A stretch of DNA of 64,000 nt from Anabaena sp. UHCC 0204 (GTDB taxonomy: Bacteria; Cyanobacteriota; Cyanobacteriia; Cyanobacteriales; Nostocaceae): assembly GCF_009711975.1 (NCBI RefSeq), contig NZ_VIKW01000008.1, positions 1-64,000 on the forward strand, in the 5' to 3' direction. A model generated the notes under the pieces. It was not told the DNA's origin, did no database searches, and saw only the letters and a list, made by a program, of their open reading frames with translations. Shown here one piece after another: positions 14,858 through 22,610 of the stretch. Each line of letters opens with the position of its first letter. Position 1 is the stretch's first letter. Both the position numbers and the translations under genes were made by a program.

Positions 14858-15136
14858 ATGGCTGCTAGTGAGTCTGGGACACCTGTTAGTCTGTCAGACA
14901 GAGAACTGCAAATTATCGACTTAGTGGCCACTGGCTTAACTAACCAAGAAATTGCAGCTAAACTGGAAATTAGTAAACGTACAGTTGATAACCACATCAG
15001 TAACATTCTCACAAAGACTAAAACTGATAACCGTGTGGCTTTGGTGCGTTGGGCTTTACAATGGGGCAAAGTTTGTTTGAATGATGTTAATTGCTGTTCT
15101 CTTCCCCCTCGGAATGATGAAAGTCTGTCTTTGTAA
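14858..15136 (+). CDS. Small LuxR-type regulator, PedR-like
   Basis: A 92-residue protein that is almost entirely a LuxR/GerE helix-turn-helix: LSDRELQIIDLVATGLTNQEIAAKLEISKRTVDNHISNIL. No receiver domain precedes it. Size and solo architecture match cyanobacterial PedR (Synechocystis Ssl0564), which responds to photosynthetic electron transport through thioredoxin and a conserved Cys. Here Cys residues occur in VCLNDVNCCS near the C-terminus. Assignment as PedR is likely but rests on these features. GGGAG precedes the ATG by about 12 nt. Confidence 0.8.
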   Translation: MAASESGTPVSLSDRELQIIDLVATGLTNQEIAAKLEISKRTVDNHISNILTKTKTDNRVALVRWALQWGKVCLNDVNCCSLPPRNDESLSL

Positions 15137-15985: not shown

Positions 15986-16090
15986 ATGCACGTTATTAGT
16001 TTTAGAATAGTAAGAGAATATGCAAAAAATCATGCAGATTGTCAGGAATCACTAAACAACTGGTATAACATTGCTAGTAAAGCTAAATGA
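15986..16090 (+). pseudogene. higB: higB toxin remnant (N-terminal 34 codons)
   Basis: Translation from ATG at 15986 gives MHVISFRIVREYAKNHADCQ and then ESLNNWYNIASKAK before TGA. This matches the start of HigB-type mRNA interferases (MHVIS...REF...HPDAE..L..WY...KKA). HigB is about 95 residues long, so about 60 C-terminal residues, including the catalytic region, are gone. The stop overlaps the antitoxin start as ATGA. The reading frame is too short to be reported by ordinary gene callers. Confidence 0.8.
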
Positions 16091-16488
16091 CCCTTACTTT
16101 TAATCCAGAGAAATACAAGGAACTATTAACAGCATATCTCCCCAAAATTATCAAGACTGAAGCTGAAAATGAACAAGCTTTAGCTATTGTAGAAGATTTA
16201 ATGCACCGAAACCGCAGTCCTGAAGAAGATGAACTTTATCAGTTATTAATTACTTTAATTGAAAAATTTGAACAAGAATATTATCAGATTAATCAACAAC
16301 ATGATCCTCAATCTATGTTGTTATTTCTTTTGGAACAATCTGATAAAAGCAAAGTTGATTTACAAGCGGTTTTGGGTTCAGAAAGTGTAGTTGATCATAT
16401 TTTAAGTGGAAAGCAGAAAATAACTCTAGATTTAGCGCAAAAACTGGGAGATTTTTTTCATGTAGAAGCAAGTTTATTTCATGAGTAG
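16087..16488 (+). CDS. higA: HigA-type antitoxin with HTH domain
   Basis: A 133-residue protein. Its N-terminal part (FNPEKYKELLTAYLPKIIKTEAENEQALAIVEDLMHR) is typical of the longer HigA antitoxins. The C-terminal HTH (about 85-130) reads SKVDLQAVLGSESVVDHILSG...LAQKLGDFFHVEASLF. It should bind its own promoter. Because the adjacent higB is reduced to 34 codons, the antitoxin is now an orphan that may still counter HigB toxins elsewhere. The start overlaps the remnant stop. Confidence 0.88.
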   Translation: MTLTFNPEKYKELLTAYLPKIIKTEAENEQALAIVEDLMHRNRSPEEDELYQLLITLIEKFEQEYYQINQQHDPQSMLLFLLEQSDKSKVDLQAVLGSESVVDHILSGKQKITLDLAQKLGDFFHVEASLFHE

Positions 16489-16551
16489 AATTTATTTGTC
16501 CTGAATATCGGCAGGTTAAAGATTTTTCTGTAGCTTAGTTAGTGATAAAAA

Positions 16552-16776
16552 CTAATGATATATTTGTAAATATTTCCTGAATATGGAAGATATATTTAGC
16601 AATTTTTCATGAGTGTTTAATTTAGTTAACAAAAATCGTCTATTTAATGATTGTAAGCCATTGATTAAATCCTCTGACGACAAAGATAATGAATCTCTAA
16701 TATTATCTCTAGTTACAGGGTTTTTATCTTGACTGATATTTAATAATATCTGTTTTTCAATATTAAATAATTTCAC
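16552..16776 (-). pseudogene. Winged-helix fragment of a STAND/WD-repeat type protein
   Basis: The 74-codon frame (MKLFNIEKQILLNISQDKNPVTRDNI...) resembles the winged-helix part of cyanobacterial NACHT/STAND ATPases: a pattern like 'EQ.IL..L....PVT...L...L......L..LL.SL.RR.LI'. No ATPase or repeat domain is found on either side, so it looks like a remnant rather than a complete gene. The similarity is from memory of the family pattern and is modest. Confidence 0.4.
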
Positions 16777-17002
16777 CCACGTTGCATCGATTTAATAAGT
16801 TATTGGTATTTATATCTTCGCTTTTTACGTTTAATTACTGACGGGATGACGAGGAATTTTCGCCTATAAAAAGCAATTGTGTATACAAGAAATGTTCCGT
16901 GATTTTAAAAGTAGTGGTTACAATTTGAATGTAGTGTGTGGTTTTTTCCGAAAACTGTATCTAAATCAACAAAACTTGTAACAATGTAAGAATAGTATAT
17001 TG

Positions 17003-17983
17003 ATGGAGATTACCAGAAGAGGACAAGTGAATCAGTTTAAAACCCTTATTTATGAACAAGAGTTAGAACACATTGCAGGATGGGTTCAAGAAGATCCCAA
17101 CTTAGAAACAGGTGGAGATTTATTTGGCTTTTGGACTCATTCAGGTTTTCCTGTTGTTCAGTTTGTTCTAGGTCCTGGAAAAACTAGCAGACATAATCAA
17201 ACTAGTTTTTATCAAGATAGAGAACATTTAATTAAAGCAGGAGAAATTCTCAGACAGAAACATGGTCTTCAACATATTGGAGAATGGCACTCTCATCATC
17301 AGATGGGATTAGCACAACCTAGTGGGGGTGATGAAAAGACTGTTTTTAACGCCTTAAAGCAATACAAGTTTCCTAAGTTTTTGCTATGTATTGCTAATTT
17401 ACGTTCAGAAAGGGAAAGTTCAGGAAGTAAATATAAAGTTAATGTTGGCTGTTTTTTATTTACTCCTTCATCTACTGAGTATCAAACAGGTTCTTGGGTA
17501 GTATTGCCTGATCAAAGTCCAATTCGTCAAGGATTAAGTCGGGGCGATAATCAAAGTTTATTGAGGAATTGTAGACGTGATAAAAACTGGGAAGTTGACA
17601 TAACAACATTAGAAGAACAAAGATTAATTTCTACTGAACCAATTGAAATATCAAAGGATATATGGTATTCAACAACGAGAGGTAAGGCTTTATTAAAAGA
17701 AATTTTTGATGGCTTAAAAAACAGTTATCAAAATTGTGAAATGTTCCGTACTCCATTGGAAGAGATTTATTTTACATTTGAGCAAAATCCTAATTATGGA
17801 TATGGATCTGCTTCTGATAAATGGCGTGTTGATATTCCTAATAATTTCCCTCAATCTTCACCGAAAATAAAGGTTAATGAGCGTTCATCATCGAAAATAA
17901 AAGATTGGAATGGGGCGTCTCAAGTTTTCAGGCAAATCGAAGCTTGTATCCAAAGATATTACAATGGTGAATGGAGTAAATAA
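17003..17983 (+). CDS. JAB/JAMM metalloprotease with C-terminal UBC-like segment
   Basis: First gene of a ubiquitin-like conjugation operon. The N-terminal domain (about 10-160) is a JAMM peptidase: E35 in LETGGDLFG, H96 and H98 in GEWHSHHQMG, and S107 and D110 in QPSGGDEKT, the full zinc-binding and catalytic set. JAMM enzymes cleave ubiquitin-like proteins from targets or process precursors. The C-terminal part (about 225-326) has ALLKEIFDGLKNSY and WRVDIPNNFPQSSPKIKV, which look like the first helix and the 'P-x-x-F/YP-x-x-P' strand of an E2 fold, but with no catalytic Cys. ATG at 17003 follows an in-frame TTG. The next gene starts 2 bp after the stop. Confidence 0.85.
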   Translation: MEITRRGQVNQFKTLIYEQELEHIAGWVQEDPNLETGGDLFGFWTHSGFPVVQFVLGPGKTSRHNQTSFYQDREHLIKAGEILRQKHGLQHIGEWHSHHQMGLAQPSGGDEKTVFNALKQYKFPKFLLCIANLRSERESSGSKYKVNVGCFLFTPSSTEYQTGSWVVLPDQSPIRQGLSRGDNQSLLRNCRRDKNWEVDITTLEEQRLISTEPIEISKDIWYSTTRGKALLKEIFDGLKNSYQNCEMFRTPLEEIYFTFEQNPNYGYGSASDKWRVDIPNNFPQSSPKIKVNERSSSKIKDWNGASQVFRQIEACIQRYYNGEWSK

Positions 17984-17985
17984 TT

Positions 17986-18447
17986 ATGTCATGGAATCAA
18001 GTACAGCGTCAAAGATTAGCATTAGAAAGAGATATTCTACACAAATATTTTCCTCAATTTAACTGGATTAATCCCACGGATACTAATAATACAAGAATTG
18101 AAGGAGAAGTGAAAACTAATGTAGGTAATGTCTATAAACTCCGAGTCTATGTTCCTTCTGATTTTCCTAACTCTTTACCAGATATGGTTGTTATCTCTCC
18201 ATATCCGTTAAAAGGTGATAAAGGACAAGATATGAAACAACATGAAACGAGTAGTAGTAGTATGCACACTTTAACTCCCAGAGATGGGTATGTGAAGATT
18301 TGCCACTATCGAGATTGGTTGCCTAATATAACTTTATATAAAGTTGTTTTTAAAGGTCGTCTTTGGTTAGAAGCACTCGAAGCACACAAAAGAACAGGTC
18401 AACCAATTGACGCTTTTTTAGGACATATGTATTCAACACAAGATTAA
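17986..18447 (+). CDS. E2-like ubiquitin-conjugating protein (UBC fold)
   Basis: A 153-residue protein with an E2-type layout: an N-terminal helix (residues 1-20), strand and loop YKLRVYVPSDFPNSLPDMVV with the UBC proline motif, H93 in MHTL near the HPN position, a candidate active Cys106 in GYVKICHYRDWLP with the usual W-x-P after it, and a C-terminal helix (YKVVFKGRLWLEALEAH). Bacterial E2s of this type accept a ubiquitin-like protein from the partner E1. It lies between the JAB gene (2 bp gap) and the E1 gene (15 bp gap). Assignment is by motif order; overall identity to eukaryotic E2s must be low. Confidence 0.82.
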   Translation: MSWNQVQRQRLALERDILHKYFPQFNWINPTDTNNTRIEGEVKTNVGNVYKLRVYVPSDFPNSLPDMVVISPYPLKGDKGQDMKQHETSSSSMHTLTPRDGYVKICHYRDWLPNITLYKVVFKGRLWLEALEAHKRTGQPIDAFLGHMYSTQD

Positions 18448-18462
18448 AATAAAGGCAAAATC

Positions 18463-19947
18463 ATGAGTCAAGCAGAATCTCAAGAAGTTCAAAATTTCTT
18501 CCAACAAACAGTAGCAGCAGGAGAGACTCCTGAAGATCAAAACCTAGTATTTGACCCTACAACGGGTGAGTTAGTTGTGCAAGGGAAGAATGAAAAATTA
18601 CCTAATCCTGATGCTGTAGTAGCTGATCAAATTGCTGAAGAAGGTTTTTTTGGAAAAACTTCTTTTGTGTATATGCACGAAAACCAAATTTCAACTATTT
18701 ATCAAAGCTGGAAAGTATCCAAAATTGATCAAGTTCCTGCGGTAGCTTTTGGATTTGATGAGGGAGAAGTATTTCATGTATATACGTCACAACCTAAAGC
18801 TCATTTTGCGGGTATTTCTGTTACTTCAGTTATCCAAATTTTACCACAGTTTGGAAATAATGATGAAGTCTTGAATGTGGTTAATGAAATTGTTAATACA
18901 AGATTATATCAACACGAAAAACAATCGTATAATATTATAGTTTTATCTGCAATTGAAGAAGATAAATTACAATGTCGTGTTTTTATTAAGCAACCTGACG
19001 GTTCTTTGAATGAAGGAATTGTGAAATTCATTCCTGAACATTCTGAGCTTTATTCCAGAAGCCAAGGTTTGCTAGAAACTTCATTGCTTGAAGATTTTAA
19101 GGTTGGAATAGTAGGATTAGGAAGTGGTGGTTCTTCCGTAGCAATAGAATTGGCCAAAGCGGGAGTTGGTAATTTTGTCTTAATTGACTTTGATCGCTTA
19201 GAGTTAGGAAACGTAGCGCGTCATACTTGTGGAACTGGTGATTTAGGACGTTATAAAACTAAATCTGTTAGAGATTTATTATATGGCAAAAATCCTTATC
19301 TTCAAGTAGAAACTGCTGAAATAGATATCAATACTAATCTAGATCAGACTAAACTTTTACTCAAAGATTGTCATTTAATTATTGCTGCAACTGATAATAA
19401 TCGTAGTCGCTTTAATCTCAATAGTATTGCATTGGAATATAAAATACCTACTATTTTTGGGAGGGCGTTAACTCGTGCTTGTGGTGGAGATATTTTAAGA
19501 GTTCGTCCTTTTGCAGGACCTTGTTTAGCCTGTGTTTTTACTAAGGATTTTTTGGAATCTCGGCAAGAAGAAGTTTCTCAATTTCGACAAGCTAGAGAGG
19601 ATAATCCTGCTTATGTTCCTGATAATGAAGTCAAAGCAACTGTTCAAGTAGGTTTATCTTCTGATATTTTGCCTATATCAAATATGATTGTCAAATTGGC
19701 ATTAGTTGAATTATCTCGTGGTAAAGATAGTGGTATTAAGTCTTTAGAGGAAGATTTAATTGCAGATTTTTATATTTGGGCTAATCGCCGAGATAATACT
19801 TATGAAAGTTGGCCTAAGATGGAATATGGCTCAAAAACACCTTCTATTTTACGTTGGTATGGGGCTAGATGGGAACGTAATTTATCCTGTGCAGTTTGTG
19901 GAGAAAGACAAGATACAATAAATGGCGATGATGGCTTTTTTGGATAA
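18463..19947 (+). CDS. E1-like ThiF-family adenylyltransferase
   Basis: A 494-residue E1-like enzyme. The C-terminal ThiF domain (about 205-485) has the nucleotide loop GIVGLGSGG (215-223), the Asp after the second strand (VLIDFDRLELGNVARH), the ATDNNRSR segment and two CxxC pairs, C354/C357 and C476/C479, which form the structural zinc site. Candidate thioester cysteines are C340 (LTRACGG) or C256. About 200 N-terminal residues are not recognised. ThiF domains adenylate the C-terminal glycine of a ubiquitin-like protein. The product itself ends in GFFG. A terminator follows at 20011. Confidence 0.87.
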   Translation: MSQAESQEVQNFFQQTVAAGETPEDQNLVFDPTTGELVVQGKNEKLPNPDAVVADQIAEEGFFGKTSFVYMHENQISTIYQSWKVSKIDQVPAVAFGFDEGEVFHVYTSQPKAHFAGISVTSVIQILPQFGNNDEVLNVVNEIVNTRLYQHEKQSYNIIVLSAIEEDKLQCRVFIKQPDGSLNEGIVKFIPEHSELYSRSQGLLETSLLEDFKVGIVGLGSGGSSVAIELAKAGVGNFVLIDFDRLELGNVARHTCGTGDLGRYKTKSVRDLLYGKNPYLQVETAEIDINTNLDQTKLLLKDCHLIIAATDNNRSRFNLNSIALEYKIPTIFGRALTRACGGDILRVRPFAGPCLACVFTKDFLESRQEEVSQFRQAREDNPAYVPDNEVKATVQVGLSSDILPISNMIVKLALVELSRGKDSGIKSLEEDLIADFYIWANRRDNTYESWPKMEYGSKTPSILRWYGARWERNLSCAVCGERQDTINGDDGFFG

Positions 19948-20010
19948 CTGATTCAAATATCAAGATTATTGAGATTAGATAGAAATTCGTTTCTACATTT
20001 TTATATACGG

Positions 20011-20041
20011 GTAGGGGGTTAGCTAAAAGCTAAACCCCTAC
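20011..20041. terminator. Hairpin terminator after the JAB-E2-E1 operon
   Basis: GTAGGGGGTTAGCT pairs with AGCTAAACCCCTAC over 14 bp (one G-T/A-C type mismatch region) with a 3-nt loop. It lies 64 bp after the E1 stop. The T run is weak, so it may also be a dispersed palindrome. Confidence 0.6.
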
Positions 20042-20084
20042 GTTATGTGTTCATGAAAATGCTATAATTATATCAAAATTTATC

Positions 20085-20188
20085 CTAGTACAATGCAACG
20101 CAAGTACATGAACCATTAAAAATCTTCAAAAAGCTTGTGTAATCAGCCTTTTTAATTATTAATTTTTAATTCCGCCTGACGGTACTAG
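20085..20188. repeat. CTAGTAC-bounded repeat, copy A
   Basis: About 104 bp running from CTAGTAC to GTACTAG. The core, CCATTAAAAATCTTCAAAAAGCTT followed by a T-rich run and ATTCCGCCTGACGG, is shared with copies at 47489-47597 and 55786-55874. No coding capacity. The inverted ends suggest a non-autonomous mobile element or a REP-like sequence. Confidence 0.75.
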
Positions 20189-20265
20189 CCACATTAACTT
20201 CAAAAGAGCGATACCTGCGGTAAGCTAACGCTAACGCTTTTCTGTATCTATGGAAATTAGTTATT

Positions 20266-20616
20266 CTATTCCATAAGCTGTTCTACAATTCCTTGAATGG
20301 TTGCAACACCAATATCCTCTTGATCAGATTTTGAATATACTGTTAACAAAATAATATTTGTAGCAGTTTGTAGATAATAAATAACTCGATATCCTGCACT
20401 TTTGCCTTTTTGAATATTGCTATTTTTCACCCTAACCTTATAAACTTGATATTCTTCTCCTAACCCTACGAGACGATCTCCTATTATTTCTCCTTCCTGC
20501 AACTGCAAAATAATGGGTTCAATATCATCACGAATTTTCCGATATCGTTTTGATAGTTTATATAATTGTTTTTCAAATTCAGGAGAAAATTTAACTGAGA
20601 TATCATTCACTTTCAA
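20266..20616 (-). CDS. relE: RelE/ParE-family toxin
   Basis: A 116-residue toxin of the RelE/ParE fold: VKFSPEFEKQLYKLSKRYRKIRDDIEPII at the N-terminus, then GYRVIYYLQTATNIILLTVYSKSDQEDI, the usual central and C-terminal strands. RelE enzymes cut mRNA in the ribosome. It overlaps the preceding antitoxin gene by 14 nt on the minus strand. With that RelN-like partner it corresponds to the cyanobacterial RelNE type. Confidence 0.88.
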   Translation of the reverse strand: MKVNDISVKFSPEFEKQLYKLSKRYRKIRDDIEPIILQLQEGEIIGDRLVGLGEEYQVYKVRVKNSNIQKGKSAGYRVIYYLQTATNIILLTVYSKSDQEDIGVATIQGIVEQLME

Positions 20617-20845
20617 TTCTCTCCCATAATTCAGAAATAGGTCTAGCCTTACCTGATTTTACTTCTGCAAAAGCCCTGGTTAAACTCTCTTTTATTTCTT
20701 CAATGGGAGTATCATCAAGATCATAATCATCTGCTTCTGGTAAAAGAATAATTACTTTGACAGCATTAATATTATCAATTTGTAAAGGATAATCTAAGGT
20801 TAATTGTCCTTCTTGTATTTTTCCAGTAACTTCTAAGGCTTTCAT
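20603..20845 (-). CDS. relN: RelN-family antitoxin
   Basis: An 80-residue antitoxin. The N-terminus MKALEVTGKIQEGQLTLDYPLQ forms beta strands. The acidic middle, with DDTPIEEIKESLTRAFAEVKSGKARPISELW, is the family signature of RelN antitoxins known with RelE in Synechocystis. It should neutralise RelE and autoregulate the operon. Its stop codon lies inside the toxin start region, so the two are translationally coupled. Confidence 0.87.
   Translation of the reverse strand: MKALEVTGKIQEGQLTLDYPLQIDNINAVKVIILLPEADDYDLDDTPIEEIKESLTRAFAEVKSGKARPISELWERIESE

Positions 20846-22610
<1,765 letters not shown>

Follow-up and report, generated by a model that had tools for sequence, protein, structure and literature searches.

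What does a bacterial ubiquitin-type conjugation operon conjugate when no substrate gene is recognized in or beside it? The question is posed by a locus of the cyanobacterium Anabaena sp. UHCC 0204 (assembly GCF_009711975.1), which lies in the stretch of DNA analyzed here as a whole and called the window (64,000 nucleotides [nt]; contig NZ_VIKW01000008.1, positions 1–64,000). Three genes, encoding in order a JAB peptidase, an E2 and an E1 enzyme, are packed there so closely that 2 and 15 bp separate them in the list of open reading frames (ORFs). An earlier note had described this arrangement from the DNA letters alone, and the ORFs, their order, and their coordinates all agree with it (Table 1). 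It had also claimed that the 226 bp upstream hold no suitable small frame and that a CD-NTase and an E1–E2 fusion are absent in or beside the operon; no ORF of at least 50 amino acids is listed in 16777–17002, and neither a family scan nor a reading of the window ORFs found a CD-NTase or a fusion. What did not survive is the picture of an operon with three components by nature, since a survey of relatives found a small fourth gene between E2 and E1. The answer that we tentatively favor is that the operon may encode an E1/E2/JAB conjugation module derived from a cyclic-oligonucleotide-based antiphage signaling system (CBASS) and lacking a CD-NTase, with a mini-protein of about 64 residues as its substrate or modifier.

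The window E1 was searched against 388 genomes of the order, its own included, and this particular E1 was counted only at E ≤1.4e-128, a level reached in 11 genomes. A far larger number (178 of 388) reach E ≤1e-10; the others at that level were taken, by score and not sorted singly, to carry ThiF/MoeB- or Cap2-type proteins. A free gene of 63–69 amino acids lies between E2 and E1 in seven of the 11 (G167, G228, G311, G044, G216, G180, and G127), where residues 4–66 of the query match a separate open frame of 68–80 codons just upstream of E1. The same module is fused in frame to E1 in three (the window, G071, and G052), and the contig of the last (G212) begins inside the E1 frame. As the fusion is common to three genomes, an assembly error in the window is unlikely. 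One branch (support 100/99) of a tree of nine E1 rows parts the four fused rows, among which the edge-cut G212 was included by label, from the five separate ones, so a single fusion or fission suffices among these rows. In the window as in the relatives read, E2 and E1 themselves are encoded by separate genes. Searched with a profile, the module was found in 10 of the 388 genomes (E ≤4.4e-29), each of them an operon carrier, and the six further matches within the cut-off (E ≤0.05) lie at E 0.004–0.05 only. Two suggestions of the earlier note thus stand in part. A modifier hidden in the N-terminus of E1 is right in its anatomy, residues 1–64 being the relatives' fourth gene, but no recognizable beta-grasp ubiquitin is found there; similarly, the operon does lack a recognizable beta-grasp ubiquitin-like (Ubl) gene, but a fourth component exists, separate or fused as just described.

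Conservation in the module is concentrated in a predicted helical N-terminal stretch, a hairpin (LVFDPxTGxLVV), and the segment PDAVVADQI..[ED]GFF. All 10 copies read, the three fused ones included, keep [ED]GFF. The E1 model gives the helix and two strands listed in Table 1, and its predicted local distance difference test score (pLDDT) falls below 50 over residues 44–64. Two free copies searched against Pfam matched no family. A beta-grasp Ubl hidden in E1 was considered and rejected, there being no family match and, in a model of low confidence, no beta-grasp order. In free copies, [ED]GFF is followed by two to five variable residues (RG, RNQIV, IIELL, WSQT, GSWPS), and the stop codon of the mini-gene overlaps the E1 start as ATGA in four of the six junctions read, two being near-copies; the variable residues and the overlap together indicate that the conserved end precedes the end of the gene.

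The E2 protein is poorly recognized by sequence. It has no Pfam match, only a weak match to the PADLOC E2 profile (E = 0.012), and nothing significant by sequence in the PDB, where the best score (E = 0.024) is a chance match. Its AlphaFold2 model (nine alignment rows, pLDDT 76) has the element order of the ubiquitin-conjugating (UBC) fold, H-E-E-E-E..E-H. Among the best 50 Foldseek matches listed (of 356 at E ≤10), 49 name E2 in the title and the remaining one is a Fanconi core complex chain; these 50 span E 0.0037–0.06, none reaching 0.001, with TM-scores of about 0.39–0.52 by query length. Cys106, the proposed catalytic residue, is invariant in 10 of 10 aligned sequences, and together with the UBC order this supports the earlier description of an E2-like protein with that candidate cysteine. 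The E2 profile matched three of 386 genomes in a sample of the phylum, its own included (the other two matches are partial, one being the G179 locus described below), and found the protein in one of 217 genomes of the host's family. Viral contigs searched with the profile gave 19 pattern matches and no relatives.

The E2 profile also connects the operon with CBASS. Among 1,579 frames from 13 loci, it matched the E2 of a Bradyrhizobium conjugative plasmid (L044; E = 6.6e-32), where JAB, E2, and E1 genes are followed by a CD-NTase, a Cap4/SAVED nuclease (E = 1.2e-243), and a TIR protein. The locus is a CBASS operon in which E2 and E1 are not fused. Its CD-NTase lies in two frames, of which the larger matches the PADLOC Cyclase profile (E = 8.8e-71), and the CD-NTase frame ends in FGSTFGA; the split reflects a frameshift or sequencing error, and JAB, E2, and E1 are separate genes (L044:4023–10393). 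The N-terminus of the Bradyrhizobium E1 was tried as a member of the module family and was not counted: a positional alignment is possible, but tblastn matches only from residue 177 onward, and a hidden Markov model (HMM) of the module built without it does not match it.

A sister family with the order small protein–E2–E1–JAB was found in four cyanobacterial genomes (G179, G245, G193, and G152). The E2 profile matches three of the family's E2s (E 1.4e-16 to 8.2e-12), and the fourth shares 76% identity with that of G193, which in turn finds the window E2 (E = 1.7e-9). The small proteins end in KGEY, KGEY, KAEY, and KGEYSGFRGYND. A Mesorhizobium locus (L045:4778–9684) carries a 57-amino-acid protein ending in LGGEY together with an annotated E2, an E1, a JAB, a metallo-beta-lactamase (MBL) fold protein, and a patatin; it was grouped with the sister family by that ending alone, its E2 match being weak (E = 0.0027). 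At or near the end of all five small proteins, G or A precedes EY (KGEY in three, GGEY, KAEY). Some particulars of these loci may be recorded here: in the sister loci (L051, L052, L053, and L098) one small protein has a further tail beyond KGEY/KAEY; in three of the four, a similar small gene, resembling a helix-turn-helix (HTH) protein by eye, diverges upstream; and L045 appears by eye to contain a second E2-like gene, annotated as a Phd/YefM antitoxin for its N-terminus. Plasmid relatives of the L045 MBL protein amount to seven records, itself included.

Through the sister family a second CD-NTase comes into view. The G193 E2 finds an E2 in G258 (L099; 30% over 113 amino acids, E = 7.3e-8), matched by the sister E2 only, and by its sequences this locus appears to be CD-NTase–E2–patatin, the arrangement of a type II short CBASS. 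The gene that precedes a Cap2-type E1 ends in GFA or ASA in eight fetched loci; two of these genes are annotated CD-NTases and the rest were judged CD-NTases by position. In CBASS, the C-terminal Gly or Ala of the conjugated CD-NTase is the end activated by Cap2 (PMC10097602, consulted in part). The CD-NTase loci and the small-protein loci together suggest that each of these operons carries a CD-NTase or, failing that, a small protein whose tail is distinctive. Judged by annotation and gene length, four other plasmid loci (L057, L059, L060, and L062) look like a Cap2-type E1 with a JAB, L058 looks like a small-Ubl–E2–E1–JAB operon (ORFs read), and L061 like an E1 near a SAVED gene.

The other two enzymes are better recognized. 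The JAB residues E35, H96, S97, H98, S107, and D110 are invariant in 10 of 10 aligned proteins, and the PADLOC JAB profile matches (E = 1.9e-14), in keeping with the JAMM peptidase of the earlier note; Pfam Prok-JAB scores 24.2 bits, slightly below its 25-bit cut-off. The C-terminal region has a weak E2/RWD-like motif, KWRVDIPNNFPQSSPKIKV, and was considered as a UEV/RWD domain; its comparison with the E2 gives a weak match (hhalign probability 16.7%, E = 0.0015, 24 columns). The ThiF-type E1 with zinc CxxC pairs is likewise upheld, by Pfam ThiF (E = 1e-30) and by both pairs being invariant in 10 of 10 E1 rows. C256 and C303 are kept in all nine cyanobacterial rows and absent from the Bradyrhizobium E1, so that, beyond the zinc pairs, no cysteine is invariant once that row is included. 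By sequence the E1 matches MoeB in the PDB (E = 8.9e-20), and MccB and PaaA are also among its sequence and structure matches. The structure predictions proposed earlier yielded, besides the UBC order of E2, Cap2 (7to3; 418 columns) and Atg7 as best structural matches of E1, but from a model of low confidence (pLDDT 53 overall, with block means of 52–85 for residues 67–200). Those residues are placed in the model like the wing of Cap2 or the N-terminal domain of Atg7, by position alone (for these domains see PMC12355090, consulted in part). In two loci (L010 in G180 and L011 in G127), the E1 gene contains stop codons or is divided between two frames.

From these observations we infer the following scheme. 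E1 would adenylate the C-terminal end of the mini-protein, and transfer could go straight to Cys106 of E2, given that no E1 cysteine beyond the zinc pairs is also kept in the Bradyrhizobium E1. E2 would then place the mini-protein on a target. JAB would trim the unconstrained tail after ...[ED]G(FF), would release the mini-protein from its E1 fusion in the window, and would reverse conjugation. That the mini-protein is the substrate or modifier is suggested by the restriction of the module to operon genomes among the 388, by its occurrence both free and fused, and by the [ED]GFF kept in every copy read and lying before the gene's end. It is suggested further by the kin E2s that adjoin CD-NTases (in L044 and, through the sister E2, in L099), by the CD-NTase conjugated in CBASS, which is also not a beta-grasp protein and ends in Gly or Ala, and by the sister family and the Mesorhizobium operon, which carry another small protein in the CD-NTase's place. 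A parallel to the release step is offered by the FtsH-ternary Ubl systems with a Ubl–E2 fusion, in which JAB is proposed to free the modifier from the fusion (PMC7159879, consulted in part).

Several results weigh against this scheme. The free mini-protein does not end in a conserved Gly or Ala (last residues V, G, L, T, S), and the Gly/Ala rule fits the C-terminus of E1 better, with F[GA] in nine of nine cyanobacterial rows. Homology of the module is not detectable by HMM to the Bradyrhizobium E1 N-terminus, nor to the sister small proteins (hhalign probability 0.2%; no match to the module HMM). The CD-NTase-like protein of L099 ends in FYGN, not in Gly or Ala. E1 is disrupted in two of the 11 genomes (G127 and G180), which indicates that the operon decays in some lineages, and the poor E1 model (pLDDT 53) counts here as well.

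The main rival is a reading in which the module is an accessory segment of E1, docking on E2, JAB, or the E1 active site or acting as a pseudo-substrate, while the true substrate is another cellular protein. We consider this unlikely, yet a serious competitor. It agrees with the fusion to E1 in three of 11 genomes and with the co-occurrence of module and E1, and the similar [DE]-[GN]-[FI]-F motif in the E1 tail is what would be expected if both segments bound one pocket. It does not explain the substrate, and it fits poorly with a different small protein in the sister operons and with [ED]GFF being kept in all three fusions, although the motif lies in a linker there. The same E1 tail invites a further alternative, improbable in our judgment, that E1 conjugates itself through an activated C-terminus, [DE][GN][FI]F[GA], regulated by the module. 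CBASS substrates end in Gly or Ala, F[GA] is present throughout the cyanobacterial rows, and all four rows of the fused clade end exactly in FFG; but one or two residues follow F[GA] in all five unfused rows, of which only two have G or A as the last residue, the sister E1s read lack such a tail, and we know of no precedent for E1 self-conjugation of this kind.

Another reading is that of a decayed CBASS leftover whose substrate is encoded elsewhere, as a ThiS-type Ubl or otherwise, or which is non-functional in this strain; we give it little weight. The reduction of a neighboring NB-ARC gene to a remnant in the window and the two broken E1s are consistent with it, as are three ThiS-family proteins encoded in the genome; proteins of this family usually serve thiamine or molybdenum cofactor synthesis. 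The three window genes, however, are all open and well conserved, the relatives keep the fourth component with no CD-NTase seen in their fetched flanks by ORF reading, and SMODS, the sole CD-NTase family searched, has no match in the strain's own genome. Least probable is a pathway like those of ribosomally synthesized and post-translationally modified peptides (RiPPs), with E1 activating the C-terminal core of a precursor as MccB or PaaA does, for in spite of those two E1 matches and of a small protein that resembles a precursor and is conserved at its C-terminal end, a precursor–E1 fusion with its core in the linker would be odd, and an E2 with an invariant Cys and a JAMM protease are unusual in such pathways.

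Among the closest known systems is type II CBASS (Cap2, Cap3, and a CD-NTase). JAB, E2, and E1 are common to both, the window E2 is related to that of a CBASS locus, Cap2 is the best structural match of the window E1, and the proposed substrate would likewise not be a beta-grasp protein. Unlike type II CBASS, the window has E2 and E1 as separate genes and a 64-amino-acid module instead of the CD-NTase; no SAVED, patatin, or other CBASS effector was seen near the operon in the ORF list, family scan, and reading, and no CD-NTase or cyclic-oligonucleotide effector in the relatives' fetched flanks on reading ORFs of at least 90 amino acids. Bil systems (BilABCD: Ubl, E2, JAB, and E1) resemble the free-gene relatives in having four separate genes, and their modifier needs an end exposed by JAB (PMC11354881, consulted in part), but BilA has two ubiquitin-like domains, whereas the module is a predicted helix–hairpin–tail without a Ubl match. 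The 6A-MBL type (Iyer row 6a; NCBIfam 6A-MBL_cap2_3) is approached by the window E1 (E = 9.5e-14) and JAB (E = 2.7e-9), both below cut-off, but the window has no E2–E1–JAB fusion, and no MBL gene was recognized beside the operon in the ORF reading. FtsH-ternary systems similarly lodge a modifier in a larger protein; their Ubl, RING E3, and vWA–MoxR partners were not recognized at the window operon. Pup and UBact, small disordered modifiers with a conserved C-terminal end, resemble the mini-protein, but Pup is served by a single ligase with no E1, E2, or JAB, unlike the window operon. Operon types 6a–6e, as given in the part of PMC1779556 consulted, include no JAB–E2–small–E1 type, and no published description of the operon or mini-protein was found, within a limited coverage of subscription papers and preprints that makes an earlier description possible.

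The genomic setting was compared with six congeners, none of which has an aligned piece longer than 150 bp to the window stretch next to eno (16513–21010). Three of them also align to the DNA left of the operon, and in two a STAND gene stands intact next to eno, among different neighbors. The lack of alignment marks the operon as cargo at a variable spot, and the conflict-type setting of the earlier note is one with which we agree; from this setting and the CBASS kinship we infer a role in defense. The STAND gene itself encodes an NB-ARC protein of about 450–480 amino acids (Pfam NB-ARC E = 1.3e-8), transcribed divergently beside the operons of relatives. In some form it is present in eight of 11 loci, the window remnant included: it adjoins the operon in L034, L035, L038, and L039, stands two genes off in L037, is broken in L042, and in L040 lies on the opposite side; the short contigs of L041, L043, and L032/L036 showed no such gene. 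STAND matches number 2–28 per genome, fragments included, in eight genomes. At eight chosen paralogue loci (L063–L070), each such gene is flanked by a divergently transcribed neighbor; the neighbors differ greatly from locus to locus and include GTPases, a DNA methyltransferase, vWA–PP2C–kinase sets, and genes without a recognized function (reading of ORFs of at least 80 amino acids). These short proteins of about 450 amino acids therefore resemble regulators or sensors of a portable kind. Beside the operon, sensing or control of the conjugation system would have fallen to the divergent NB-ARC protein, a control lost in the window.

Other genes near the operon include, between it and eno, a ParE/RelE-like toxin gene with a small upstream partner on the minus strand (20266–20845; Pfam E = 6.9e-7). 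Judged by eye, a 92-amino-acid frame at 14858–15136 is similar to the HTH portion of a LuxR-type regulator; it is probably a remnant. Downstream of the Prochloron operon, tandem near-identical genes of 300 amino acids (L040:3739–5641) resemble Rpn-type nucleases by eye.

Table 1. Coordinates of the operon, its parts, and its surroundings in the window
Feature	Position	Strand	Remarks
Variable stretch between the HTH gene (16087–16488) and eno	16513..21010	.	Comparison with six congeners
C-terminal remnant (74 amino acids) of divergent NB-ARC STAND protein	16552..16776	-	E = 1.5e-11
JAB/JAMM peptidase, 326 amino acids	17003..17983	+	JAMM domain about residues 23–133, then C-terminal region of about 100 amino acids
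E2 (UBC-fold) protein, 153 amino acids	17986..18447	+	Candidate catalytic Cys106 at 18301–18303
E1 (ThiF family), 494 amino acids	18463..19947	+	Mini-module fused N-terminally
Mini-module, E1 residues 1–64	18463..18654	+	Helix 6–18, hairpin 26–31/36–41, disordered tail, all predicted
Tail end of mini-module, AEEGFFG	18634..18654	+	
E1 residues 67–200, alpha/beta domain	18661..19062	+	At the position of the Cap2 wing or ATG7 N-terminal domain; position only
E1 adenylation domain	19084..19929	+	CxxC pairs C354/C357 and C476/C479
E1 C-terminal tail, DGFFG	19930..19944	+	[DE]-[GN]-[FI]-F-[GA] in nine of nine cyanobacterial E1 rows

A bolder version of the same proposal, which we regard as more speculative, is that these operons represent a second kind of E1/E2/JAB system, one that conjugates a mini-modifier of about 60 residues with a helix–hairpin–tail shape in place of the ubiquitin fold. 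This modifier would be processed at an internal G(FF) site and would be produced as a free precursor in some cyanobacteria and as a modifier–E1 polyprotein in others. Such a system may have evolved from CBASS by replacement of the CD-NTase, the sister family using another mini-modifier that ends in [G/A]EY. If this is true, CBASS-type conjugation machinery works without nucleotide signaling, and modifiers may have been overlooked because of their shortness, their lack of a ubiquitin fold, or their place inside E1. Concrete candidates are offered by the operon and its sister family, and the natural fused and free variants allow the question of the modifier to be tested directly.

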